64,000 bases of DNA, from contig DASXKV010000046.1 in the NCBI GenBank assembly GCA_036496605.1, forward strand, positions 1 to 64,000. Direction: 5' to 3'. The translations under genes and the position numbers were made by a program. The notes beneath the pieces were generated by a model. It made no database searches, was not told the origin of the DNA, and saw only the letters and a list, made by a program, of their open reading frames with translations. This DNA is from Gemmatimonadaceae bacterium. Lineage in GTDB: Bacteria; Gemmatimonadota; Gemmatimonadetes; Gemmatimonadales; Gemmatimonadaceae. Below are positions 27,985 through 62,881 of the stretch, piece after piece (position 1 is the stretch's first letter; every line of letters begins with the position of its first letter).

Positions 27985-29439
27985 GTGCAGCCGCCGGCCT
28001 ATGGTCCTTTTCGCATTGCGCTGATCGGTGACTTCAGCGGTCGTGCGAATCGCGGCATTCTCGAAAAGGGGAAGGCGCTCGCTGCGCGTCGATCCGTGCG
28101 CGTGGATCGCGACTCGATCGACGATGCCATCGCGCACTTTGCTCCACGACTGCAACTCAACGTCGGCAGCGAAGGAGACCGTGTCGAGATCGGGTTCACC
28201 GCACTCGACGATTTTCATCCGGATGGTCTCTATGAGCGGCTTCCGCGCTTTCGCGCTCTTCGCGACGCGGGCGCGCGCGCGCTCGCGTCGGCGTCGTTCC
28301 TGTCTTCGCGGATGCCAACGCCGCCGACGCCAGCCGGCGCTCTCGACGCAATTCTTGGCGACGCCCCAATGCCACCCGGCGGTGCCGCCCTCGCAAAGGC
28401 GCCGGCGCGACCAACGCTCCAACCTTCGGACAGCGCCCTGTCGGAGTTTGTCCAACGCGCCGTGGCGCCTCATCTCGTTCGCACTCCGGACCCTACCGCC
28501 CAGGAGATCAAGGCCGGCGTCGACGCCGCGGTGACGGCCGAGTTGCGCGCGATCCTGCATGATGCGGATTATCAGGCGCTCGAGGCTGCATGGCGAGAAG
28601 CCGCCTTCCTCGTTAGGCGACTGGATACCGATTCGGCTCTTCAGGTTCACGTCGTCGATATCTCTCGCGAGGAGCTCGCCGCCGATCTCGCCACGGACGA
28701 CATCGAGCGCTCGGGTCTACATCGTCTCCTCGTCGAGCAGAGCGTCGGAACACCCGGGAGCGATCCGTGGGCGCTGCTCGTCGCTTTGTCCACGTTAGGT
28801 CGCGACGAGAACGATCTCGCGCTCCTCGGCCGTCTGGGACGCGTCGCTCGTGATGCAGGGGCCCCCTTTGTGTCCGGTGGCTCGTCTGCGCTCGTCGGCA
28901 CCGAATCGATCGCGGCGACGCCCGATTGCGATGATTGGATGGCCGAGGCACCGAACGGCTGGCCAGCCCTGCGCGCCTCGAGCATCGCGCCGTACGTGTC
29001 TCTCATCGCACCGCGCATTCTATTGAGGCTTCCGTACGGGAAGCGCACCGACGAATGCGAGCTCATTCAGTTCGAGGAAAACGTGCCGGACACACGTCCC
29101 GAGCACGAGAGTTATCTCTGGGGCAGCGGCGGCGTCGCGGCCGCGTTGCTCATCGGCGAGGGGTTCAGCGAATACGGCTGGAACCTCCGGCCCGGACGCG
29201 AGATCTCGAATCTCCCGCTCCACGTTTATCGCGCCGACGGCGAAACGATCGCGACACCATGCGCGGAGGCGGTGTTGAGTGAGCGCGCCGCGGAACGGCT
29301 GCTGGAAAGCGGACTGTCGCCGCTGCTCACGGTGCGCGACAGCGACGCCGTGATCTTCCCGCGCCTGCAATCGATCGCGGAGCCATTGACTCGGCTGCGC
29401 GGTCGTTGGAACACATCGAACGATGCCGACGGCGACTGA
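27985..29439 (+). CDS. TssB-TssC-like fused sheath protein
   Basis: A 484-residue protein starting at GTG. Residues 1-105 resemble TssB (RIALIGDFSGRANRG aligns with the VGVLGDFSG-type start; IGFTALDDFHPDGLYERLPR with TssB FESLDDFNPE). An Ala/Pro-rich linker follows (106-150). Residues 155-475 are TssC-like (DADYQALEAAWREAAFLVRR corresponds to TssC DFQKLEGTWRGLKYL; APRILLRLPYGKRT to LPRILIRQPYGRD; SYLWGSGGVAAALLIGEGFS to YAWAGASWALASRI). It is shorter than TssC alone plus TssB. Separate tssB and tssC exist downstream, so this is an additional sheath-type subunit. It overlaps the second methyltransferase by 17 bases, tying the two together. It may cap or vary the sheath, or build a separate short tube. 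Confidence 0.87.
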   Translation: MQPPAYGPFRIALIGDFSGRANRGILEKGKALAARRSVRVDRDSIDDAIAHFAPRLQLNVGSEGDRVEIGFTALDDFHPDGLYERLPRFRALRDAGARALASASFLSSRMPTPPTPAGALDAILGDAPMPPGGAALAKAPARPTLQPSDSALSEFVQRAVAPHLVRTPDPTAQEIKAGVDAAVTAELRAILHDADYQALEAAWREAAFLVRRLDTDSALQVHVVDISREELAADLATDDIERSGLHRLLVEQSVGTPGSDPWALLVALSTLGRDENDLALLGRLGRVARDAGAPFVSGGSSALVGTESIAATPDCDDWMAEAPNGWPALRASSIAPYVSLIAPRILLRLPYGKRTDECELIQFEENVPDTRPEHESYLWGSGGVAAALLIGEGFSEYGWNLRPGREISNLPLHVYRADGETIATPCAEAVLSERAAERLLESGLSPLLTVRDSDAVIFPRLQSIAEPLTRLRGRWNTSNDADGD

Positions 29440-45120: not shown

Positions 45121-46140
45121 ATGCTTCAGATCAATAACGTGACGCCCTTCAAAACCCAGTTAATGCTATTCGCGAACCGCGAGGGCATCGACACTGTGTA
45201 CGCGATCATCAAGGGCACATTCACCTACCACGACGGAGTGAGGCTCTCGCCTGAGCAGGTGCCGATCGTCGTGGAGGACAAACATCACGGTGACCCGGCA
45301 ACGAGTAGTATTCGGACGCCCTCTGATGTTTCACTCGAGAAGCCCGCGACAGACGTGGTACTCGTTGGGAGCGCCTGGGCGCCTAACGGTGATCCAGCGT
45401 GGCAGTCCGACGCGTCAGTATCCGTCGCATCGGTGACGCGAACTGTTCGTGTGTCTGCCGATCGCGTGTGGGAGTCAGGAGTTGCCGGCACGACGGCAAG
45501 TTGGATTGCACCCTTCGTGCGCATGCCACTGGTGTGGGAGCGTGCATACGGCGGCAGCGACATCGGTGAGAAGGGACTTGTCGCGGACTGGCGCAACCCA
45601 GTGGGCGTTGGATTCCGTGCCAAAGGTAGCTCGAAATCAACCACGGGCTCCCCAATTGCGAACATCGAGGATCCTGGGACGCTCATCTCTTCTGCAACGC
45701 AGACGCCGTCGCCGGCAGGGTTTGGTCCTGTTCCCGCGCACTGGCTGCCGCGCCGAAAATACGCAGGTACATATGACGAGCAGTGGGAGCGCGATCGCGC
45801 CCCCTACCTGCCGGACGACTTCGACCCCCGTTTTTGCCAAATCGCGCCGCTCGGACTCGTTATGCCAGGAATGCTTCAGGGCGGAGAGATCGTTGAACTT
45901 CGCGGGGTGACGCCATCGGGATTCGCGCGGTTCGCTTTACCAAGTATAAGCATTGAGGCGCAGTATCATCTCCCGAACAAGACCGAGACGCGTCCGGCAT
46001 CAATGGATACCGTCATCATCGAGCCCGATAATGCCCGGCTCGTCCTCGTTTGGCGTACCGCGCTACCCTGTGATAAGCAAGCGCTCAAGGTGCGTGAAGT
46101 GGAAATTAATGCCGGTGGCGACGCGGTGGTGGCCGTATGA
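45121..46140 (+). CDS. DUF2169-family T6SS adaptor
   Basis: A 339-residue DUF2169 protein. The N-terminus NVTPFKTQLMLFANREGIDT matches the family start (x-PF-A), followed by VYAIIKGTFTYHDGVRLSPE, and later AYGGSDIG, FRAKGSSKSTTG, PVPAHWLPRRKYAGTYDEQW. Proteins of this family work with DUF4150 PAAR-like tips and effectors in T6SS modules, most likely as adaptors that load the tip/effector on VgrG. Directly follows vgrG, and its stop overlaps the start of the ketosynthase-like gene (ATGA). Confidence 0.9.
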   Translation: MLQINNVTPFKTQLMLFANREGIDTVYAIIKGTFTYHDGVRLSPEQVPIVVEDKHHGDPATSSIRTPSDVSLEKPATDVVLVGSAWAPNGDPAWQSDASVSVASVTRTVRVSADRVWESGVAGTTASWIAPFVRMPLVWERAYGGSDIGEKGLVADWRNPVGVGFRAKGSSKSTTGSPIANIEDPGTLISSATQTPSPAGFGPVPAHWLPRRKYAGTYDEQWERDRAPYLPDDFDPRFCQIAPLGLVMPGMLQGGEIVELRGVTPSGFARFALPSISIEAQYHLPNKTETRPASMDTVIIEPDNARLVLVWRTALPCDKQALKVREVEINAGGDAVVAV

Positions 46141-47198
46141 GTGCCGATTCGGTTGTAATCGTCGGTCTTGGAATGATGACTTCGGTCGGCGTTTCAGCGC
46201 GGGAGACCGCCGCGTCAGTGCGCGCCGCAACGGCCCGATTTATAGCCATTCCTGCACGCGATAAGCAATTCCGACCATTCACGATCGCGGAAGTACCTAA
46301 CGATGCACTGCCGCCGCTTGCTGGGTCGTTGCACGATGTCAACTCGCTTTCCGATCGTGAACGGCGCCTGCTTAGGCTCGCGACGCCTCCTCTGAGGGAA
46401 TGTTTCGGACCTTTGACCGCCTTGCCGGTCACGCTCGCGCTGTGTCTGGCGCTCCCAGAACAGGAGACGATGCGTCGAATCGATTCCGCAGCATTTCTCT
46501 CTCATCTTGCGAATCAGACGGGGGTGCCTTTCGACCCCGCGAAGAGCGACGCGCAGCATGTCGGACGTGCCGGCGGGTTGCTAGCTATCGGTCAAGCCAT
46601 TTTGACAATTCAAGCCGGACTCGCTGACTTTATCATCGCCGGCGGTGTCGACAGCTATCGCGACCTGTTCGTCCTCGGCACGCTCGACAAAGAGCGGCGC
46701 GTGAAGTCCGAATCAAACCTCGATGGATTCATCCCGGGCGAAGCCGCGGGCTTTCTACTGCTCGCCAGCGCTCGCGCCGCAGCTGCTCAGCGCCTACCTG
46801 TGTTAGCGCGCGTCACCCCTATCGTCACGGGATTCGAACCCGGTCACCTCTATAGTTCTGAATTGTATCGAGGGGATGGGCTGGCGATGACCTTTCAACA
46901 CCTAGTCGCGCGTGGTGAGGTCGATGCGCCCATCGCTGAGGTTTATTCGTCGATGACCGGCGAGAGCCACTGGGTGAAGGAATGGGGCGTAGCATTTATG
47001 CGGACCCGCGGCGCTTTTCGTGAAGGACATGGCATGCACCATCCGGCTGACTGCTTCGGTGAGACTGGCGCCGCCAGTGGGCCGCTGATGGTCGGTCTCG
47101 CCGCGTTAGGCATAAATGAGCGTTATCGGCGCAGCCCTGCCCTGGCGTACGGATCATCGGATCGCGGCGCTCGCGCCGCAATGGTCATTACAGCGTAG
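46137..47198 (+). CDS. Ketosynthase-fold protein lacking catalytic residues, T6SS payload module
   Basis: A 353-residue thiolase-fold protein, shorter than a 410-residue beta-ketoacyl synthase. It keeps the fold signature (VIVGLGMMTSVGVSARETAA at the start, LADFIIAGGVDSYRDLFVLG, LDGFIPGEAAGFLLLASARA). The nucleophile position is GRAGGLLAIGQA (143-154) with no cysteine, and the GHT-type histidine region reads CFGETGAASGPLMVGLAAL. It is therefore probably not an enzyme and instead acts as an adaptor or chaperone within the effector module. Similar dead ketosynthases are known alongside DUF2169/DUF4150. The start overlaps the DUF2169 stop. Confidence 0.85.
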   Translation: MSADSVVIVGLGMMTSVGVSARETAASVRAATARFIAIPARDKQFRPFTIAEVPNDALPPLAGSLHDVNSLSDRERRLLRLATPPLRECFGPLTALPVTLALCLALPEQETMRRIDSAAFLSHLANQTGVPFDPAKSDAQHVGRAGGLLAIGQAILTIQAGLADFIIAGGVDSYRDLFVLGTLDKERRVKSESNLDGFIPGEAAGFLLLASARAAAAQRLPVLARVTPIVTGFEPGHLYSSELYRGDGLAMTFQHLVARGEVDAPIAEVYSSMTGESHWVKEWGVAFMRTRGAFREGHGMHHPADCFGETGAASGPLMVGLAALGINERYRRSPALAYGSSDRGARAAMVITA

Positions 47199-54062: not shown

Positions 54063-57000
54063 ATGCTGGGTCGACGCCTCCGGATCGTGGCGCTCGCCGC
54101 GATCGCGTTGTTCGTCGTCGCTTCGTTTGTCGACGTCGATGAACCATGGTTCGCGATCTGGGTCGCCTTGCTGGGTGCGGCGGCTGTGTTGCCGGGGCTG
54201 GGAGTGCGAGACCGCGGGAACGAGCGGCCAGCGTACTTTCTCGCGCTCTTCGCCGCAGTCTGGGTCTTCGCGGTCAACAGCTACTACGTCGAGATCCAAC
54301 GGCAGCGGAGTGAGCGCTTCGACGTCGTTGGCGTTCATCTCACTCCGCCGCGCTCGGGTATTTTCCGCATTGGCGCCGGTGATCTCAGCGCCGATGGGAG
54401 CGTCCCGGACTCGCTCGACGTCCGCTTCGAGGCCTCTCCCGACGTCGCGCAGCGTTGGGCGGTGACGCTGCGTCGAGACCGTGCGCGACACGGCGTCGTC
54501 GTCGACAGCATGGAAGGGGTCGAGTCGCTGCAGCAGAAGCGCGACTGGAGTCGATCGCCATCGCGCCAGTTGTGGGACCGTGTCGTGCGCTTCGATCCCG
54601 CGTGGGTGCAGCTCTGGGGCGACGAGCTCAGTCTCTCCTCGCCAGAGGTGAACGCGATGGCGGCGCGTGCCGGCGGGCCGACTCATCATTTCCGTCTCAT
54701 CGAGTCCAGCGACGGCCGCTTTCTCGAATGGAACGGTGAGCGCGCGACCCTCGTTCTTCCCGACTCCTCCCCCGCGCTCGAGGTCCTCGGAAGGCGCCTA
54801 ACGAGAAAGCTCGGCGAGGGGCTGCCACTCCGCGAGCTCTCGTGGACGCACGTCCCCGACACGAGTGCCGCCCGCGACCTCGTGTTGACACTGATCTACG
54901 AGCCGCAGGCGCGACTGAAGCCGCTCGAGCGCTGGGGCCTGGTGCCGCCTCTGCTCTTTCGCCTGGCATCACGTGACGGCGAATGGGTGGTCACGAAAGC
55001 CGACAAGCCAGCAGTCGAGCGACCGTTCCTCACGATGGGCGATACGGTGCGAGTCGTGTCACACGGTCGGCGATGGTCCTTCGTCCTCGCCGATCACTCG
55101 CGCGGACCGAACCGCGATCCGGGCGTGGCCGTGCGCTTCGTTCGCGGCCCCGACCCCCGTCTCGGCTGGCTGCCCTCGGACGAAGTCTGCGGCACGCAAC
55201 GACGCTGCACGCTCGTGTCGTCGTCACGGCTTCCGCCATCCGTGCCGCACTTCTACCTCGGCGCCTTCGGCCTCGACACGACTCGTTATGCATTCCTCGG
55301 CCGCGTGCGCATGGTGAATGACCGAACGGCGCAGGTCATCGCATCCGACAGCGTGTACACGGCACCGGTCGATTCGGTGATGACGGTTTGGGCACGCTCG
55401 GCCGATCCGCGCCGCACGGCGGGATACTTGTTGAGAATTCACAAGGTGGCGACCGGAGAGATCATCAACCTCAATCTCACGTTCGCTGGCCTGGCGCTCC
55501 TGATCACGGGCGCGTTCCTGCTGCTCGGATCCGATCCGCGAATCAGCTCGGCGGCGCTCAGCGCCCGTCCGTCGACGGCGGCCGCGTGGACGCTCGCGAA
55601 CCTCGCGCTCGTCTTCCTCGGCGTCCGGCTCGTGCTCGGTTATCGCATCACGTATGCGACCCCGTATTACGAGCGCGGCGCCGACTCGGCGGTCGGTGCG
55701 TGGATCGCGACGATTGTCGGCACGGTGATGCTACTCGAATGGAGCACGTGGGCGCCGCGCGTCGTCAGGTTCATGCTCCGCGTCGAGGATCGTGCCGCGC
55801 GAATCGTCGCGGGCCTGCGCCGCGAACCGGCGACCGGCTACACCGGCGCGGTCGCCGCCGCGAAGCTCCCCGATCAACGCACGACGGCACTCGGGCTCCT
55901 GTTCATGCTCATCGGGTTCGGTGTGCTTGGCGTGCTCCGGCCGTCAGCGGTGGTCGGCGCGCTGCTCGTCGTGTTCGTGGCGATGCTGGCGTGGATCGGC
56001 GTCGAATACCTGCGGCCACAGCGTCGCGGACGTGAGCCGGCGACCACACCCGCGGAAGTGCTGCGCGCCGACCCCAGCGACGACGATTGGGCTCGCCGCG
56101 CTGCGATCATCATCGCGGCGTGCGGTGTTCCCCTCAGTGTGATCGCCCGACAACTCGCGGTGTTCGCGACGGTCACGCTGGTCGTGCTGTACGCGATCGG
56201 CCTCCTGCTCTGGCGACTGAAGCGTGGTGCACTCGGCCGCAGCGACGTCGCGCCGAGGCTTCGTCTTGGTGCGCCCCTCCTGACGCTGGCGCTTCTCGGT
56301 GCGCTGAATTTCGTCGTGCTCGTTAGGCGACTGGACGGACCGACACTGCTCTTCGCCGCGCTCTTCTTCCTCTTCCTCCTGATCGTTCGCAACGGGCGCG
56401 ACGCCGGTGTCTCGTTCGCGTTGGGCAGGGGCCGGGCGGCGATTGCCGTGCTCGGGATTCCACTCGCGGCCACCCTCCTCGCGACGCGCGCCGACTTTGG
56501 CCTCGGCCTGGTGTTCAGTCTGCCGCTCGTCGTGACGTTGCTGCTGGCGATGGGACTCGCGTACCTGCCGCGTAGCGTGGCGGCGACGTTTGCGGTGATC
56601 ATCGCACTCATCGTGGCGCTCGCCGAGCCTGTGCTCCGTCCCCACCTCACGACGCTGCAGCACGCCGATTCTCCGGCGGCGCGATCCGCGGCGTTCGCCG
56701 ATCTCGGCGGCCCGTTGCGTCACTGGCCGCTCACGGCGGATCCGGTGATCCGGGCAGTGGTGCGCGGGCTTTCAGCAACGCATCCGGAGCTTCTCGAGCG
56801 GGTGCTCGTGAGTGCCGCGCCCTCCCCGGAGCGCGACGAGATCCTGCGCTCGATGGAGCAAGCGTGGGGTGGACGAGCGTACGCAGCCTCTGGACTGTTC
56901 GGCGAAGGGCTCGCTGGCCCGACCGTGATTGGACGCGGCGTACCGGTTCCGATCTCGTACGCCGAGAACACCTTCTCGGTCTACGTGTTGTCCGAGCACG

Positions 57001-57335
57001 GCTTGTTAGGCGGGATCGCTGTGCTCTTGCTCTACGTGTGGGTCGTGCTCGTCGTCGTGCTCTACACGTGGCGAGTGTCGCGTGGTGAGAAAGATGGCGC
57101 CACGCGTCAACCTTCCGACGACAGCCCGCTCGCTGTCGTCGTCGGCGGTGCGTTGATGCTGACGATTCCCGCGGCGTACGTGGCGGCGTCGAATCTGGGC
57201 ATTGTGCCGCTGACGGGACAGAACATGCCCTTCCTTGGACTCAACGCCTGGAGCGACGTGTCGTTCGTCAGCGCGATAATCTCGGCGATGGTTGTTGCCC
57301 TCTGGCGCGCCGAAGGCAAGCAGAGGGACGCATGA
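54063..57335 (+). CDS. Giant SEDS-like (FtsW/RodA-type) membrane protein with a periplasmic domain
   Basis: A 1090-residue protein, over twice the length of FtsW or RodA. Two helices (about 6-25, 28-48) and a third (56-76) lead to a large extracytoplasmic domain (80-460), mostly beta. From 465 to 1085 about ten further helices follow. Near the end are SEDS signatures: RADFGLGLVFSLPLVVTLLL with Asp811 at the position of the catalytic Asp of SEDS glycosyltransferases; SYAENTFSVYVLSEHGLLGG; and VPLTGQNMPFLGLNAWSD, equivalent to the PVTGxxLPFxSYGGSS loop. The next gene is a penicillin-binding transpeptidase, starting in the overlap ATGA. The pairing supports a peptidoglycan polymerase. The large N-terminal domain is unexplained. 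Confidence 0.85.
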   Translation: MLGRRLRIVALAAIALFVVASFVDVDEPWFAIWVALLGAAAVLPGLGVRDRGNERPAYFLALFAAVWVFAVNSYYVEIQRQRSERFDVVGVHLTPPRSGIFRIGAGDLSADGSVPDSLDVRFEASPDVAQRWAVTLRRDRARHGVVVDSMEGVESLQQKRDWSRSPSRQLWDRVVRFDPAWVQLWGDELSLSSPEVNAMAARAGGPTHHFRLIESSDGRFLEWNGERATLVLPDSSPALEVLGRRLTRKLGEGLPLRELSWTHVPDTSAARDLVLTLIYEPQARLKPLERWGLVPPLLFRLASRDGEWVVTKADKPAVERPFLTMGDTVRVVSHGRRWSFVLADHSRGPNRDPGVAVRFVRGPDPRLGWLPSDEVCGTQRRCTLVSSSRLPPSVPHFYLGAFGLDTTRYAFLGRVRMVNDRTAQVIASDSVYTAPVDSVMTVWARSADPRRTAGYLLRIHKVATGEIINLNLTFAGLALLITGAFLLLGSDPRISSAALSARPSTAAAWTLANLALVFLGVRLVLGYRITYATPYYERGADSAVGAWIATIVGTVMLLEWSTWAPRVVRFMLRVEDRAARIVAGLRREPATGYTGAVAAAKLPDQRTTALGLLFMLIGFGVLGVLRPSAVVGALLVVFVAMLAWIGVEYLRPQRRGREPATTPAEVLRADPSDDDWARRAAIIIAACGVPLSVIARQLAVFATVTLVVLYAIGLLLWRLKRGALGRSDVAPRLRLGAPLLTLALLGALNFVVLVRRLDGPTLLFAALFFLFLLIVRNGRDAGVSFALGRGRAAIAVLGIPLAATLLATRADFGLGLVFSLPLVVTLLLAMGLAYLPRSVAATFAVIIALIVALAEPVLRPHLTTLQHADSPAARSAAFADLGGPLRHWPLTADPVIRAVVRGLSATHPELLERVLVSAAPSPERDEILRSMEQAWGGRAYAASGLFGEGLAGPTVIGRGVPVPISYAENTFSVYVLSEHGLLGGIAVLLLYVWVVLVVVLYTWRVSRGEKDGATRQPSDDSPLAVVVGGALMLTIPAAYVAASNLGIVPLTGQNMPFLGLNAWSDVSFVSAIISAMVVALWRAEGKQRDA

Positions 57336-59935
57336 CGACTCCGAAGACACAGTTTCCAATCGCGAGGAGCGAAGCTTTCGCGCCGCTTGTCGAGGTCCAC
57401 CCGGAGGCGCCGGCGAAGCGCGAAGCACGATTGCCGTCGTCGGCACAGGTCGGACTCATCTTTCTGCTGCTCACCGTGGTCGGCTTTGTCGCGTTAGGCG
57501 CGGTGCTCCCGCATTACACGCTCTCGAACACGGCTCGCCACGGCCTCACGTACGACACGCTCTTCGCCGAACTTCACGATGCACTGATCGACGAGCCGGA
57601 TCGTCCGCTCCGTCGTGCGATTCGTGCCGTCCAGGTCGACGCGCTCGTTCCAGCGCCTAACGGGTACACCGTCGTCACGTACGACACGCTCTCGGCGGAT
57701 CCGTCGGTCTATCCGAGCCTCGAGGCAGGTGGGTTCCTCCACGACGAGATCGATCGCTTCAATGGCTATCAGCGCGAGCGCCTCGATGCCGTGCGCCGCG
57801 GACACCTGACCGGCGGCACGGTCATGGATCTGCGCGCCGCCGAGAACCCGTCGATCTTCCGCACCGAGATCCGGTCGCTCGACGATGCACGAGGTGAGCG
57901 GGACAGCATCGTGCTTGCCGAGCGCGCGGTGCCGTACGGTTTGCGCGTTCCTTCGCCATTCGACGCGGCACGGCTCGTCGCCGTGACGACGCGAGAATGG
58001 TCGCGAAGCCTCGGCTGGCTTTCAGCGAAGGGCGCGCAATCCGTGCGGTCGGCCGGCAAGGTGCCTGGAGTTCCGCCTTGTCCATTCCGCGCGGTGAAGG
58101 ATTCCGTGTACGTCGAGTGCACGGCGCCCGGCTCACCATTCGCCCAGCTCGTGTTACGCTTTCCGGATCGCCTTGGCGAAACGGGCACCGCGACGCTCTT
58201 CACGGGCGAGCGGACACTCTACGACGGCAAGCAGCTGCCGTCGCGACGTACCGTGCCGATCGGCACTGGCGGAATGTTCCAGTTTCACTCGCGCGCGCTG
58301 TCCAGCGCGCGTCGGACGCGTCCCGAGCCGGTGATTCTCGAGTGGACGCTCGCCGGCACGTTAGGCGGCACGCAATGGATCAACGGCCGGATCCGCTGGG
58401 AGCCGAGCGTCTCGCGAACGTCGCCGCTCGTGAGGCAGCTTGCCAGCGCGGCTGGCTTCGGCGCCAGCGTCGAGCTCGAGGCGGGGCGGAACATCCCACT
58501 GAGCCTCGACGAAGGCCTCACCGACGACCTCCAGGCCGAGCTCGATGATTTCGCCGGGCATGGGAAGCATGGTCCGTCCCACATGCAGACGAGCGACCTC
58601 GCCTTCGCGACGGTCGTTCTCGCCTCGGCGAAGACCGGAGAGATCCTCGGAGTGGCGGAGTATGGTCCACCAGCAGCGAGTGGCGGCAGCTGGCTCCTCA
58701 AGCCCGTGAACGTTGGCTCGGCGATCAAGCCATTGCTCGCGGCCGCAACGTTGATGGAACGTCCCGAGCTCGCCACGCTCGAGGTGCGGAACGATGCGAT
58801 GACGATGCACGACGTCTGGGGTTTGCCGTTGGGCAAGCCGTTCGAGTCGGGCGCTTCGTGTCCATTGGGTTGGATCGGACTTCGACAGTTTCTCAGCTGC
58901 TCGAGCAATCGATACTCGGCCTCGCTCGTGGCGGCGGCGCTCCAACCAGCGGCAAGCCGGGGTACGCCCGAGCTCGAGAGCGCACCCGGCGTCAGCTTCC
59001 GTCTCGGCGGCCAGACCCACGTCGGACAACGGCTTCATCTTCCGCTCGACCGCAATCATCAGATTCGCGCCGACACTCTCAACGGCAGCGCGCTGGCCGA
59101 GGGTCTTTTCACTCTCGACAGCCTGAACACGAGTCTCGAGCTGGCGGCGCAGCTCGGCCGCGAGGGACGCGACTCCTCCGTTTGGCTGCATCTTCGCGAC
59201 GACCGCTTCAACCCGGTGCGCGTTCCGCTCGGCCTGTGGCCTGAGCAATCACGCCTGGCAATGATGCGTGGCAATCGGCCGGCGACGGCGCGGCAGCTCG
59301 CGATGTTCTCTGTCGGGGCGGCGGAAAACCGAGTGACGACCCTCGATCTCACACAGGCCTTCGCCCGCATCGTCACCGATCGTCGTTTCGCTCTGACGTT
59401 CGTGCCCAACTCCAGCGGCCAGGCATCTTTTCCGTCGCTGGAGCTGTCCAAGTATTCGTGGTACCCGGCCTTCATCGGCGGGCTGCACGACGTCGGTACG
59501 ACTGGAACGGCAAAGGGAACTCAAGCTGCCATCGCGCAGCAGCTCAGCACGAGCCTGCTGTTCTTTGGCAAAAGCGGCACGCTGAATGCGCCGCCACACG
59601 TGCGCGTTCTCCGACGCACCGACACCGTAATGGTGAACGGCGCGCCGGTGACGCGTCCCCTGACGTTCGTGGATACGGTCGTCCCGCCCGTGGTGGCCAA
59701 GACGCTGCTTTTTGCAATCGGTGCGAAGTACTCGCGCTCGGGTAAAACGTTGGACACTGGGAAGGTGAAGCAGCAAGAAGGAAACGGCGGCGCGATCGAT
59801 TGCGGTATCGTCGGAACGATCTACTTCCGGCTCCGTCGCAATCCACCGCACGTCGAGTCGCTGGCGACGGATTTCGCGAACGAGCGCCTCTGGCGCTTGC
59901 TCCGGAAGGACTGGCAACGGCTGAAGGTGTGTTGA
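57332..59935 (+). CDS. Penicillin-binding-protein-like transpeptidase
   Basis: An 867-residue single-pass membrane protein with helix at about 36-60 (QVGLIFLLLTVVGFVALGAV). All three penicillin-binding motifs are present in order: SxxK is S463-A-I-K466 in NVGSAIKPLLAAA; SxN is S524-S-N526 in LSCSSNRYSASL; KSG (for KTG) is K747-S748-G749 in FFGKSGTLNAPP. Before them, ATVVLASAKTGEILGVAEYG is the classic lead-in to the active Ser. The N-terminal 380 residues are beta-rich with no glycosyltransferase domain, so this is class B-like, with the SEDS protein as glycosyltransferase. Unlike FtsI or PBP2 it is longer. Overlaps the SEDS gene by 4 bases. Confidence 0.88.
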   Translation: MTTPKTQFPIARSEAFAPLVEVHPEAPAKREARLPSSAQVGLIFLLLTVVGFVALGAVLPHYTLSNTARHGLTYDTLFAELHDALIDEPDRPLRRAIRAVQVDALVPAPNGYTVVTYDTLSADPSVYPSLEAGGFLHDEIDRFNGYQRERLDAVRRGHLTGGTVMDLRAAENPSIFRTEIRSLDDARGERDSIVLAERAVPYGLRVPSPFDAARLVAVTTREWSRSLGWLSAKGAQSVRSAGKVPGVPPCPFRAVKDSVYVECTAPGSPFAQLVLRFPDRLGETGTATLFTGERTLYDGKQLPSRRTVPIGTGGMFQFHSRALSSARRTRPEPVILEWTLAGTLGGTQWINGRIRWEPSVSRTSPLVRQLASAAGFGASVELEAGRNIPLSLDEGLTDDLQAELDDFAGHGKHGPSHMQTSDLAFATVVLASAKTGEILGVAEYGPPAASGGSWLLKPVNVGSAIKPLLAAATLMERPELATLEVRNDAMTMHDVWGLPLGKPFESGASCPLGWIGLRQFLSCSSNRYSASLVAAALQPAASRGTPELESAPGVSFRLGGQTHVGQRLHLPLDRNHQIRADTLNGSALAEGLFTLDSLNTSLELAAQLGREGRDSSVWLHLRDDRFNPVRVPLGLWPEQSRLAMMRGNRPATARQLAMFSVGAAENRVTTLDLTQAFARIVTDRRFALTFVPNSSGQASFPSLELSKYSWYPAFIGGLHDVGTTGTAKGTQAAIAQQLSTSLLFFGKSGTLNAPPHVRVLRRTDTVMVNGAPVTRPLTFVDTVVPPVVAKTLLFAIGAKYSRSGKTLDTGKVKQQEGNGGAIDCGIVGTIYFRLRRNPPHVESLATDFANERLWRLLRKDWQRLKVC

Positions 59936-59965
59936 GTGTACGGCGGAATACCTCTGAAATCGTTC

Positions 59966-61048
59966 ATGCGCAATCGAGTGTGGCTGCTGCTCGTCGTTGC
60001 TGGTCTGGCCGCATGTAAGGACGGCCATCGCTGGCGCAGTGTGCTTCGTGACTACGCGAGACCGGACACGGTCGAGCGGCTGCACGTCATGCTCGACGGC
60101 GAGCGCGCTCGCGGCGATACGGCGCGCAAGCTGAACCAGGAGCTCGCGCAGAAGAACGAGTACCTCCTCGCGCAGCTCAACGAGCTCTCGAGCATCGTCA
60201 ACGAGATCGACCGAGATCTGGGGGGCCCGCGCGGTGGAGCGGTGCGCCCGCTCGTGCCTAACGGCGAGCTTGGCGACAGCGCCAGCGAGCGCGAGGTGCT
60301 CGAGGCGAAGCGGGAGCGAATCGCCGCGAATCTCGGTCGCCTAACGACGAGGCTGCGAACGAGCGACAGTCTCTGGCACGCCGCGGTCGCGAGCGACAGC
60401 GCCTCGCGGCGCGAGTTGGCATCGTCTGCCGAGACGCTGGCGATGTTTCGGACGCTCGCCGAGAATCGCGCCGTGCAATTCGCCGCGTTCGAGCAGAGCA
60501 TCGACAGCCTGCGGGTCGAGAACCGCGCGCTGGCCGACGATCGCGATCGCATGCGAGACAGTCTCTCGCGACTCTCGGCGCGCGTGGGTCGTGTGTATTA
60601 CGTCGTCGGCACTCGCGACGAGTTGCTTTCTGCCGGCGTGATAAGGGAGGTCACCGTCGCGAAGAAGTCCTGGCGAGGTTGGCAGCGAGAGAAGCAGCTA
60701 CTGCCGTCGCGCGACGCCGACCTTTCGCGTCTCGCGGCGATCCGTTCGGCGTTCGGGTCAATTGCGACGTCGAACGACGACGAGGCGGACGTCGAGCAGC
60801 AGGGCTCGTCGTCGCGCGCTCCGGAGAATGGCGAGTTTCGCGAGCTGGACCGCTATCGCGACACCGTTCTTGCGCTGCCCGCCTTGCGGCACGGACGTCT
60901 GCGCGTGATTTCCGCGCAGGACATGAAGTACGCCGACGGCGTCGGCCGTGATGGACGCCTCAACTCCGACGACAATCGGCTGCACGTCACTGAGCCCGAG
61001 CAATTCTGGGAGGGCGGTCGGTATCTCGTTTTGGTCGTCGAGCGCTAG
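59966..61048 (+). CDS. Coiled-coil lipoprotein of the SEDS/PBP operon
   Basis: A 360-residue lipoprotein. ATG 59966 gives MRNRVWLLLVVAGLAACKDG with lipobox LAAC. Residues 35-240 are heptad coiled coil (ELAQKNEYLLAQLNELSSIV and later RVENRALADDRDRMRDSLSR). A beta domain closes it (GRVYYVVGTRDELLSAGVIR, then YRDTVLALPALRHGRLRVIS). The C-terminal part looks like a compact recognition domain. It starts 31 bases after the PBP stop, so probably in the operon. It could scaffold or regulate the SEDS/PBP complex. Function unknown. Confidence 0.8.
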   Translation: MRNRVWLLLVVAGLAACKDGHRWRSVLRDYARPDTVERLHVMLDGERARGDTARKLNQELAQKNEYLLAQLNELSSIVNEIDRDLGGPRGGAVRPLVPNGELGDSASEREVLEAKRERIAANLGRLTTRLRTSDSLWHAAVASDSASRRELASSAETLAMFRTLAENRAVQFAAFEQSIDSLRVENRALADDRDRMRDSLSRLSARVGRVYYVVGTRDELLSAGVIREVTVAKKSWRGWQREKQLLPSRDADLSRLAAIRSAFGSIATSNDDEADVEQQGSSSRAPENGEFRELDRYRDTVLALPALRHGRLRVISAQDMKYADGVGRDGRLNSDDNRLHVTEPEQFWEGGRYLVLVVER

Positions 61049-61103
61049 CCGGCCTGCGGATTGCGCGTTAGCTACTCAAACCTGCAGAACGGAGTGTCAG
61101 CAC

Positions 61104-61400
61104 ATGTCGGAACGCCGCAAGACTCACAACGGTCGCGATGTAGACGGCCACTTCAAAGTGAAGCAGACGGACGTCGAAGACACACTCGAGGATCCGTCAG
61201 GCGAGGATTTCATTCGCGACGACATTCGACTTGGCGGCGCGGTGGCTGATACCGGCCCGCAGGCGGGCGCGAGCGGTGAGCACGTCGAGCGCCTCATCGA
61301 CGAGAACAATTATGAGGTCGATCACCTTGTCGGGCGGGACCGCGACTCGGCTCCGGATAACACCAAACGGCGACGCCGCAAGCCGAAAGGGAGTCGCTAA
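61104..61400 (+). CDS. Small charged hypothetical protein
   Basis: A 98-residue soluble protein, Asp/Glu-rich with a very basic end (TKRRRRKPKGSR). ATG 61104 has GGAG 10 bases upstream; upstream ORF extension to 60948 reads through the end of the lipoprotein gene in another frame and looks artificial. No domain recognised. It follows the lipoprotein gene by 55 bases and may be part of the operon. Confidence 0.65.
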   Translation: MSERRKTHNGRDVDGHFKVKQTDVEDTLEDPSGEDFIRDDIRLGGAVADTGPQAGASGEHVERLIDENNYEVDHLVGRDRDSAPDNTKRRRRKPKGSR

Positions 61401-61552
61401 TCGGCTCACGGACTCAGTGTTCCCTGTCGCCATGATGCTCCTGAGATGGCGCTTTCGGGGCTGTCCGTAGTTATCCCGAAACGCGCGCGGCGTGGTTGCA
61501 TGGCGCACAAAGATGGGGTACCGTACCAGTTCGTCCATTGGGAATCGGGCCC

Positions 61553-62881
61553 GTGCACTTCTATTCGGCGCCGTGGGAAGTGGTGGAGGGAGACGTCGCG
61601 GGCTGCGGCCCGCGGCTTTTCCTAACGGGCACCAAGCTCCTCACGGGAGTTTGGGACCGTCTCGTGAGCGAGGCCCGACAGAACGTCTTCGGCAACACCG
61701 AACAACTCGACGCCGTTAGCTGGCCCGCCTTCGAGCACGGAATTCGAGCTCTCGCGCCCGTCTCGCTGCGCGAGCGGCTCGTGTGCCTCCTGTCGCTCGA
61801 TACGCTCGCGGATAGCTCCCGGCTCAGGCTCTACTATCGAATAATGCGCAGCGACGGCGAGCCCGTCGCGTGCGCGTTCATGGCGATCGCCTGTGTGCAG
61901 AAGGCCACGGGCAACTCATCGGCCGTGCCGCAGCCGCTGGTCGACCTCCTTGCCAACCGTGGCGATTTTCGCGAACGCGATCGATCGCCGTCGTTTGTCG
62001 AGCGAGCGCTTGTGCTTCCTGATGCCGAAGAATCGCTCTTCCCCGACGACGTCCGTGCCCTCGCCATCGGAGTGGCGATGCAGAGCGCGGCTGCGGTCAC
62101 CCAGCGGCGAACGCCGACGACCCCACTTGCGATTCCGGCACTCGGCGAATTGCCGGTGCCCGAGGGACGCACAGCGTTCTTCTTCCCCGATGCGCCGTCC
62201 TACGACGGGCGATTGCTCTGCGAGTTACGTGCGTACCTACCGTATCTCGCCGACTACTTCGATGAAGCTGAAGAGGTTTCGCGTCGCATCTTCCGGCAGT
62301 CATTTCTGCCGCTAGTCGACATGGACGCGATCGCGCTGCACGATCAACGGCTCGAGCGGTGCCCCGAGCTCGCGCACGTCGGCGTCGTACTCACCGGCGT
62401 ATTGATCGCGGAATCCCTGAAGGAGCACGGCATCCAGCCAGATGCGTTGATTGGCGATGGCTTGGGCGAGCTGGCCGCGTTGGCGGTGGCTGGCGCAGCC
62501 GATCTTTCCACGGCTCTGCGACTCGCGGCTCAACGCGCCCTGGCCGCACGGCCAACGAACGCCGACGGAGAGTCTCCGACGGCAGCCGAGCAGTTCAAGA
62601 CGGCGTTCGAGGAAGTGCGATTCGTGGCGCCGGGGCTGCCGATCGTTACGCTCCGGTCGCGCGGATTATTCGCCGATCGCGCCGAGGACCGGTCTGGGTC
62701 GTTAGGCAATGCGCGGGGCGACGCCGACCTCATTGCCGCCGCGTGGGGCGCGGGGTGCGAGCACGTCATCGAGTGCGGTCCGCGTGGCTTCCTGAGCGCC
62801 GGCGTTCGCGCTCCGGTGCCGGCGCTGACCTTCACGCCCGAGTCACGTTCTGACGCGCGGCGAATCCTGACGAGTGAATAG
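61553..62881 (+). CDS. Acyltransferase-fold protein lacking the catalytic serine
   Basis: A 442-residue protein. The C-terminal half carries a malonyl/acyl-transferase-like core: SLKEHGIQPDALIGDGLGEL is the GHSLGE-type nucleophile elbow with Gly303 replacing Ser and Asp replacing His, followed by AALAVAGAADLSTALRLAAQ. Later HVIECGPRGFLSAGVR matches the IEVGP-type motif. Without Ser it should not transfer acyl groups. The N-terminal half is of unknown type. The start is uncertain: GTG 61553 begins MHFYSAPW; TTG 61496 is also open. Lies head to head with an aminotransferase gene. A structural or regulatory role is likely; alternatively the assignment to the AT fold is wrong. Confidence 0.7.
   Translation: MHFYSAPWEVVEGDVAGCGPRLFLTGTKLLTGVWDRLVSEARQNVFGNTEQLDAVSWPAFEHGIRALAPVSLRERLVCLLSLDTLADSSRLRLYYRIMRSDGEPVACAFMAIACVQKATGNSSAVPQPLVDLLANRGDFRERDRSPSFVERALVLPDAEESLFPDDVRALAIGVAMQSAAAVTQRRTPTTPLAIPALGELPVPEGRTAFFFPDAPSYDGRLLCELRAYLPYLADYFDEAEEVSRRIFRQSFLPLVDMDAIALHDQRLERCPELAHVGVVLTGVLIAESLKEHGIQPDALIGDGLGELAALAVAGAADLSTALRLAAQRALAARPTNADGESPTAAEQFKTAFEEVRFVAPGLPIVTLRSRGLFADRAEDRSGSLGNARGDADLIAAAWGAGCEHVIECGPRGFLSAGVRAPVPALTFTPESRSDARRILTSE

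Follow-up and report, generated by a model that had tools for sequence, protein, structure and literature searches.

An additional SEDS-like/class B penicillin-binding protein gene pair in Gemmatimonadota whose polymerase half appears to lack the usual catalytic aspartate

Pairs of a SEDS protein and a class B penicillin-binding protein (PBP), such as RodA-PBP2 and FtsW-FtsI (PF01098 and PF00905), are the main synthases of the bacterial cell wall and are antibiotic targets, and the characterised pairs share the same aspartate. Escherichia coli RodA depends on Asp262 in periplasmic loop 4, the Asp262Ala protein being inactive, and mutation of Asp159 leads to reduced activity (PMC10449877). Extra pairs occur in other bacteria, as with the several FtsW/RodA enzymes of Listeria (PMC6686043), and PMC10449877, citing the RHA1 genome, refers to natural SEDS-PBP fusions, for example in Rhodococcus. 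Here, we describe an operon encoding a SEDS-like membrane protein, a class B-type PBP, a lipoprotein, and a small protein in a 64,000-nucleotide stretch (the window; contig DASXKV010000046.1, assembly GCA_036496605.1) from a Gemmatimonadaceae bacterium, a soil member of the phylum Gemmatimonadota. Its features are as follows.

54063-57335, forward strand: SEDS-like integral membrane protein, 1090 residues (open reading frame; PF01098 match below cut-off; family profile A1 matches FtsW/RodA)
54291-55469, forward strand: predicted extracytoplasmic domain of about 393 residues, between transmembrane segments 3 and 4 (hydropathy, positive-inside rule, alignment A3)
56493-56495, forward strand: Asp811, PDxG-type aspartate (ADFG), matching E. 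coli RodA Asp159 and not Asp262
56964-56972, forward strand: Glu968-Asn969-Thr970, at the place of the canonical H[TN]D (alignments)
57213-57233, forward strand: TGQNMPF, corresponding to the TG[IL]xLPFxSYGGSS loop of canonical proteins (alignments)
57332-59935, forward strand: class B-type PBP, 867 residues, one N-terminal transmembrane segment (open reading frame, motifs, profile)
58718-58729, forward strand: SxxK motif, Ser463-Lys466 (invariant in alignment A2)
58901-58909, forward strand: SxN motif, Ser524-Asn526 (invariant in A2)
59570-59578, forward strand: K(S/T)G motif, Lys747-Gly749 (Lys and Gly invariant in A2)
59966-61048, forward strand: lipoprotein with lipobox LAAC and a long coiled coil
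61104-61400, forward strand: small charged protein of about 98 residues (congener comparison)

As in RodA-PBP2 and FtsW-FtsI, a polytopic SEDS core is followed in an operon by a single-pass class B PBP, and the two genes are coupled by an ATGA overlap (57332-57335) that joins the stop codon of the SEDS-like gene to the start of the PBP gene. The PDxG aspartate, the TGxxxPF loop, and all PBP motifs are shared as well. In contrast to the canonical proteins, the window protein has 1090 residues, about 18 predicted transmembrane segments, and a 393-residue ectodomain, and it scores below the Pfam cut-off; H[TN]D is replaced by [E/D]-N-x, EExG by EHG, and SYGGSS by GLNAWSD.

The descent of the 1090-residue protein was judged from several comparisons. 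Whole-protein Pfam and NCBIfam scans gave nothing convincing (no hmmscan match at E<1), and a PDB profile search with the SEDS core returned no match. A search of its own genome placed a PF01098 match near the C terminus (E 2e-4; 21.7 bits against a curated cut-off of 26.4), and relatives score 19.9 to 25.3 bits in the same region. When profile A1, built from seven relatives, was run against the phylum, the background matches that were classified below the true members were canonical FtsW/RodA proteins and a second SEDS-like group. An hhalign comparison with canonical SEDS proteins gave 93% for the region that reaches from the fourth extracytoplasmic loop as far as TGxxxPF, and in plasmids the top tblastn match was an annotated FtsW/RodA. 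Hydropathy and the positive-inside rule predict 3 transmembrane segments before the ectodomain and 15 after it, about five more than were noticed in a preliminary description of this DNA, and the last ten hydrophobic segments are predicted to match, in order and charge, the 10-segment SEDS core with its cytoplasmic ends. On these comparisons, the protein is apparently of SEDS descent; we call it SEDS-like but refrain from classing it with the SEDS glycosyltransferases, since their defining catalytic residue was looked for and not found. An affiliation with Wzy/WaaL-type ligases, suggested by the ENxF...EHG pattern, was rejected, since those secondary matches in the phylum that could be classified belonged to FtsW/RodA or to a different SEDS-like group, and among plasmids an annotated FtsW/RodA scored best. 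The second divergent SEDS-like group (L047, L048, L052, L053, and L057) consists of open frames of about 600 residues with the motif ADDG..QWG in other Gemmatimonadota genera.

The preliminary description had regarded Asp811 as the retained catalytic aspartate. Asp811 is instead the PDxG-type residue equivalent to Asp159 of E. coli RodA, and the aspartate of the canonical H[TN]DF motif is absent from the window protein, where Glu968, Asn969, or Thr970 takes its place depending on the method, and never Asp. Hidden Markov model and hhalign registers mostly place Glu968 at Asp262 (Asp in the fused clade described below), an alignment including the second SEDS-like group places Asn969 there, and three alignments with a Rhodococcus fusion carrying ENDF place Thr970 there. 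The [E/D]-N dyad (EN or DN; Glu968-Asn969 here) is invariant in the aligned family members, as are the key positions around Asp811 and in the TGxxxPF loop in A1; this loop had been correctly recognised before. Judged from these alignments, the polymerase half would thus lack the usual catalytic aspartate, and the best reading is that the polymerase chemistry of the SEDS-like core is altered or lost. A conserved family in which the architecture is kept and the aspartate changed offers a natural test of what this catalysis needs.

The ectodomain, earlier put at about 380 residues, contains two cysteines conserved in 7/7 aligned relatives (A3). A search for this domain had been proposed in the preliminary description; Pfam and the PDB yielded no convincing match or recognised fold. 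A forkhead-associated (FHA) domain suspected from an xIGxxxxxDVRL pattern found no support in Pfam, and AlphaFold models of the core and the ectodomain from two- and three-row alignments (window and the congener locus L020) were discarded at pLDDT values of 33 to 37.

In the PBP, SxxK, SxN, and KSG/KTG are kept in all complete relatives and are invariant in the 11 proteins of alignment A2, in line with the earlier report of all three catalytic motifs. The family alignment matches FtsI structures in the PDB (E 9e-8), and PF00905 is found in 5/11 family members, the window protein taken alone not being among them. We assign the protein to the class B type from its sequence, because it has one predicted transmembrane segment (residues 40-58) and no GT51 domain, there being no Transgly match on the window contig.

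Among 395 sampled Gemmatimonadota genomes, the SEDS-like family was detected by strong matches in 13, plus G029, and in 14/14 of these genomes the PBP lies directly downstream of the SEDS-like protein or is fused to it. A single open reading frame holds both in a clade comprising G017, G018, G029, and G188, and a separate fusion occurs in G164, in a different part of the tree; only 4% of bootstrap trees require a single change. Because the two proteins are fused in relatives, these data indicate that they work together. One of the fused forms belongs to a cultured species, Gemmatirosa kalamazoonensis (G018, whose 1.1-Mb replicon is identical over 6 kb to NZ_CP007129.1), which makes the proposals below testable. 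Neighbour clustering over all SEDS-like loci found no gene common to all of them beyond the pair.

The pair is additional to the housekeeping division and elongation enzymes, because the genome (5.97 Mb, 97% complete) retains a canonical FtsW and, 6 kb from it on contig C35, a class B PBP, as well as a canonical RodA on C14, a second canonical class B PBP on C11, and three class A PBPs on C68, C32, and C3. This bears out the earlier view that the locus is separate from the ordinary division and elongation cassettes; the possibility that it held the only FtsW/RodA, or an artefact, was checked and does not apply, canonical FtsW and RodA being present. Canonical FtsW/RodA proteins were also found in the 13 other genomes with the pair, G029 (77% complete) showing only one.

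The four open reading frames previously grouped as an operon are present at the positions listed above. Against the congener locus L020, the ratio of nonsynonymous to synonymous substitution rates (dN/dS) lay at 0.06-0.08 in the SEDS-like protein and at 0.09-0.12 in the PBP; the lipoprotein gave 0.12 and the small protein 0.08. Purifying selection peaked across the SEDS core. These low values therefore identify real genes under constraint, and the operon is under purifying selection. The lipoprotein most likely starts at 59966, is rich in heptads in its middle part, and is 82% identical to the congener copy, in agreement with the earlier description of a coiled-coil lipoprotein after the PBP. 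The small protein is likewise a constrained gene, although its conserved part begins at Met 61104 and covers 98 residues rather than 150; a conserved counterpart was found in the congener only. In that congener, a metagenome-assembled genome, an internal deletion and a frameshift lie within both the SEDS-like and PBP genes (L020 5329-7340), with flanks still under purifying selection, which suggests recent damage or an assembly error.

Several relatives place the pair next to GTPases. In G018, G017, and G029, the three genes directly upstream of the fusion encode a P-loop GTPase, a protein of 825-965 residues that matches nothing in Pfam, and a second GTPase, which carries a DPxGE Walker B motif and a transmembrane segment. 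The GTPase directly upstream of the Gemmatirosa fusion matches DO-GTPase2 (E 2e-5), the sole place over the cut-off in a 14-genome search, and in G018 the GTPases, the fusion, and then a lipoprotein of the window family lie in one stretch. The split pair of G030 is directly followed by two P-loop GTPases, a membrane protein, a 1029-residue protein, and a TPR-CHAT protease (L024 6748-15112), and in G356 a ZorA-like protein follows the pair. In the window genome, both GTPases have full-length homologs on contig C67, where the second aligns from end to end and is followed by a homolog of the window lipoprotein (L076 7604-10766), which is the only other member of that lipoprotein family detected in this genome; a counterpart of the protein between the GTPases (the GAP1 position) was not found there. 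An operon of the C67 type also occurs in G001. The A7 GTPase is confined to genera containing the pair; it was found in 5/395 genomes, 4/5 of them with the pair (genus-level p of about 3e-4).

Collectively, these findings suggest an accessory, lineage-restricted, and conditionally used SEDS-like/class B PBP wall-building module that is probably controlled by GTPases and the lipoprotein, a reading to which we give a probability of roughly 0.55. Several observations weigh against it. No DO-GTPase genes lie beside the window operon, and several SEDS-like loci (e.g., G035, G095, G185, and G214) have no recognised GTPase or lipoprotein alongside. The co-occurrence statistic of the A7 GTPase is inflated by related genomes, and in the fifth genome, G001 (same genus, 79% complete), the GTPase-lipoprotein operon is present but no SEDS-like gene was detected. 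In other genomes, members of the lipoprotein family lie apart from both the GTPases and the pair, and because of this the lipoprotein, once considered as proof of the GTPase link, makes that link suggestive only. Finally, the catalytic position is not occupied by Asp, and polymerase activity could be lost.

If the module works as proposed, the SEDS-like protein and its dedicated class B PBP would form one inner-membrane complex in the window species, as the single polypeptide of some relatives suggests, and the PBP would crosslink peptidoglycan. The SEDS-like core would bind the lipid-linked substrate and probably still polymerise it, the Glu968-Asn969 dyad replacing His-Thr/Asn-Asp. On the periplasmic side, the ectodomain and the lipoprotein may position the complex or gate it, and the P-loop/double-GTPase pair may switch it on under particular conditions. 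A fuller proposal, in which the module is a GTPase-switched peptidoglycan synthase with a new active-site dyad, its own transpeptidase (twice fused), a double-GTPase/lipoprotein relay, and conditional use, e.g., in wall repair or reinforcement during conflict or envelope damage, is put forward only tentatively. If true, such a synthase would represent a principle of control that the literature searched does not describe. The earlier suggestion of a third, specialised cell-wall synthase accordingly holds in part: the pair is extra and fused in relatives, but the catalytic aspartate is not kept.

The strongest competitor, itself doubtful, is that the SEDS-like protein has lost its glycosyltransferase activity and now acts as a scaffold and sensor in the membrane, positioning and activating the transpeptidase, which would work on strands from other polymerases. 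No register puts Asp at the catalytic position of the window protein, the alanine substitution at Asp262 inactivates E. coli RodA (PMC10449877), and with the Rhodococcus fusion as a bridge 3/4 alignments have Thr, Ala, Ser, or Val there. However, the replaced segment belongs to the best-conserved parts of the family (N969, E978-H979-G980, and TGQN are invariant, and the acidic residue is E or D throughout) and shows the lowest dN/dS, whereas dead domains usually drift. That the pair is an ordinary third FtsW/RodA-PBP pair for elongation or division, merely diverged, is unlikely: the operon of a SEDS-like and a class B PBP gene fits this, as do extra pairs elsewhere (SpoVE-SpoVD, and the Listeria FtsW/RodA enzymes of PMC6686043), yet the doubled size, extra transmembrane segments, ectodomain, score below the Pfam cut-off, changed catalytic motif, and patchy presence (13/395 genomes) do not. 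That the pair belongs to the neighbouring type VI secretion system (T6SS), e.g., for local wall openings or anchoring, is highly improbable and was rejected: the complete cluster at 17.3-49.2 kb lies 5 kb upstream and co-occurrence is weak (5/8 versus 9/52 genomes, p 0.013), but G030, G035, and G056 carry the pair without TssF, which largely refutes it, in G017 and G018 (Gemmatirosa, with a plasmid-borne T6SS) the pair and the T6SS do not share a contig or replicon, and opposite-strand genes intervene in the window.

This T6SS cluster (17278-49246) contains all core genes looked for, as well as two TssK genes, a VgrG with Gp5 repeats, DUF2169, PAAR, an AHH-nuclease-like effector, and an Imm11 immunity protein. 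Its linkage to the pair is not consistent across genomes, and the adjacency is regarded as incidental. The preliminary description had noted neither this cluster nor the fusions and GTPase neighbours of the relatives. A protein within it (27985-29439) matches VipA (TssB) in its N-terminal part, and over the rest VipB (TssC); separate TssB and TssC genes exist besides it, and two methyltransferase genes flank it. A ketoacyl-synthase-like protein is encoded near the cluster at 46137-47198. Downstream of the operon lies one further gene.

61496-62881, forward strand: acyltransferase-like protein with GDGLG replacing GHSxG

The substituted motif gives this protein the look of a pseudoenzyme. Its gene is adjacent in the congener too (dN/dS 0.18) and was seen at none of the other SEDS-like loci, and its membership in the operon is doubtful.

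Among systems described previously, SpoVE is canonical in size and catalytic aspartate, unlike the window protein, and we know of no GTPase link for SpoVE-SpoVD. This sporulation pair resembles the one described here in standing beside the housekeeping pairs for a special task (PMC10449877). The GTPase loci of the relatives appear to resemble DO-GTPase systems (Kaur et al. 2020, PMC7159879) in having a pair of paralogous P-loop GTPases, of which one bears a DPxGE Walker B, in their membrane components, and, in one genome, in a CHAT protease. They fall short of the full definition, the protein between the GTPases having no GAP1 domain match and the window having no adjacent GTPases; the text of PMC7159879 does not mention FtsW, RodA, or penicillin. 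Comparable to the fused relatives is the Rhodococcus fusion, likewise accessory, in one polypeptide, and with regulatory genes alongside. On Rhodococcus plasmid pLW2 (L099 3006-8569), genes for a PP2C protein, an FHA protein, an 883-residue SEDS-PBP fusion, and a hypothetical protein lie in a row. The Rhodococcus fusion differs in its 883-residue length, its ENDF motif with Asp kept, and its PP2C and FHA neighbours, whereas in the Gemmatimonadota family the SEDS parts are larger and there are ectodomains and neighbouring GTPases; in the window the pair is split.

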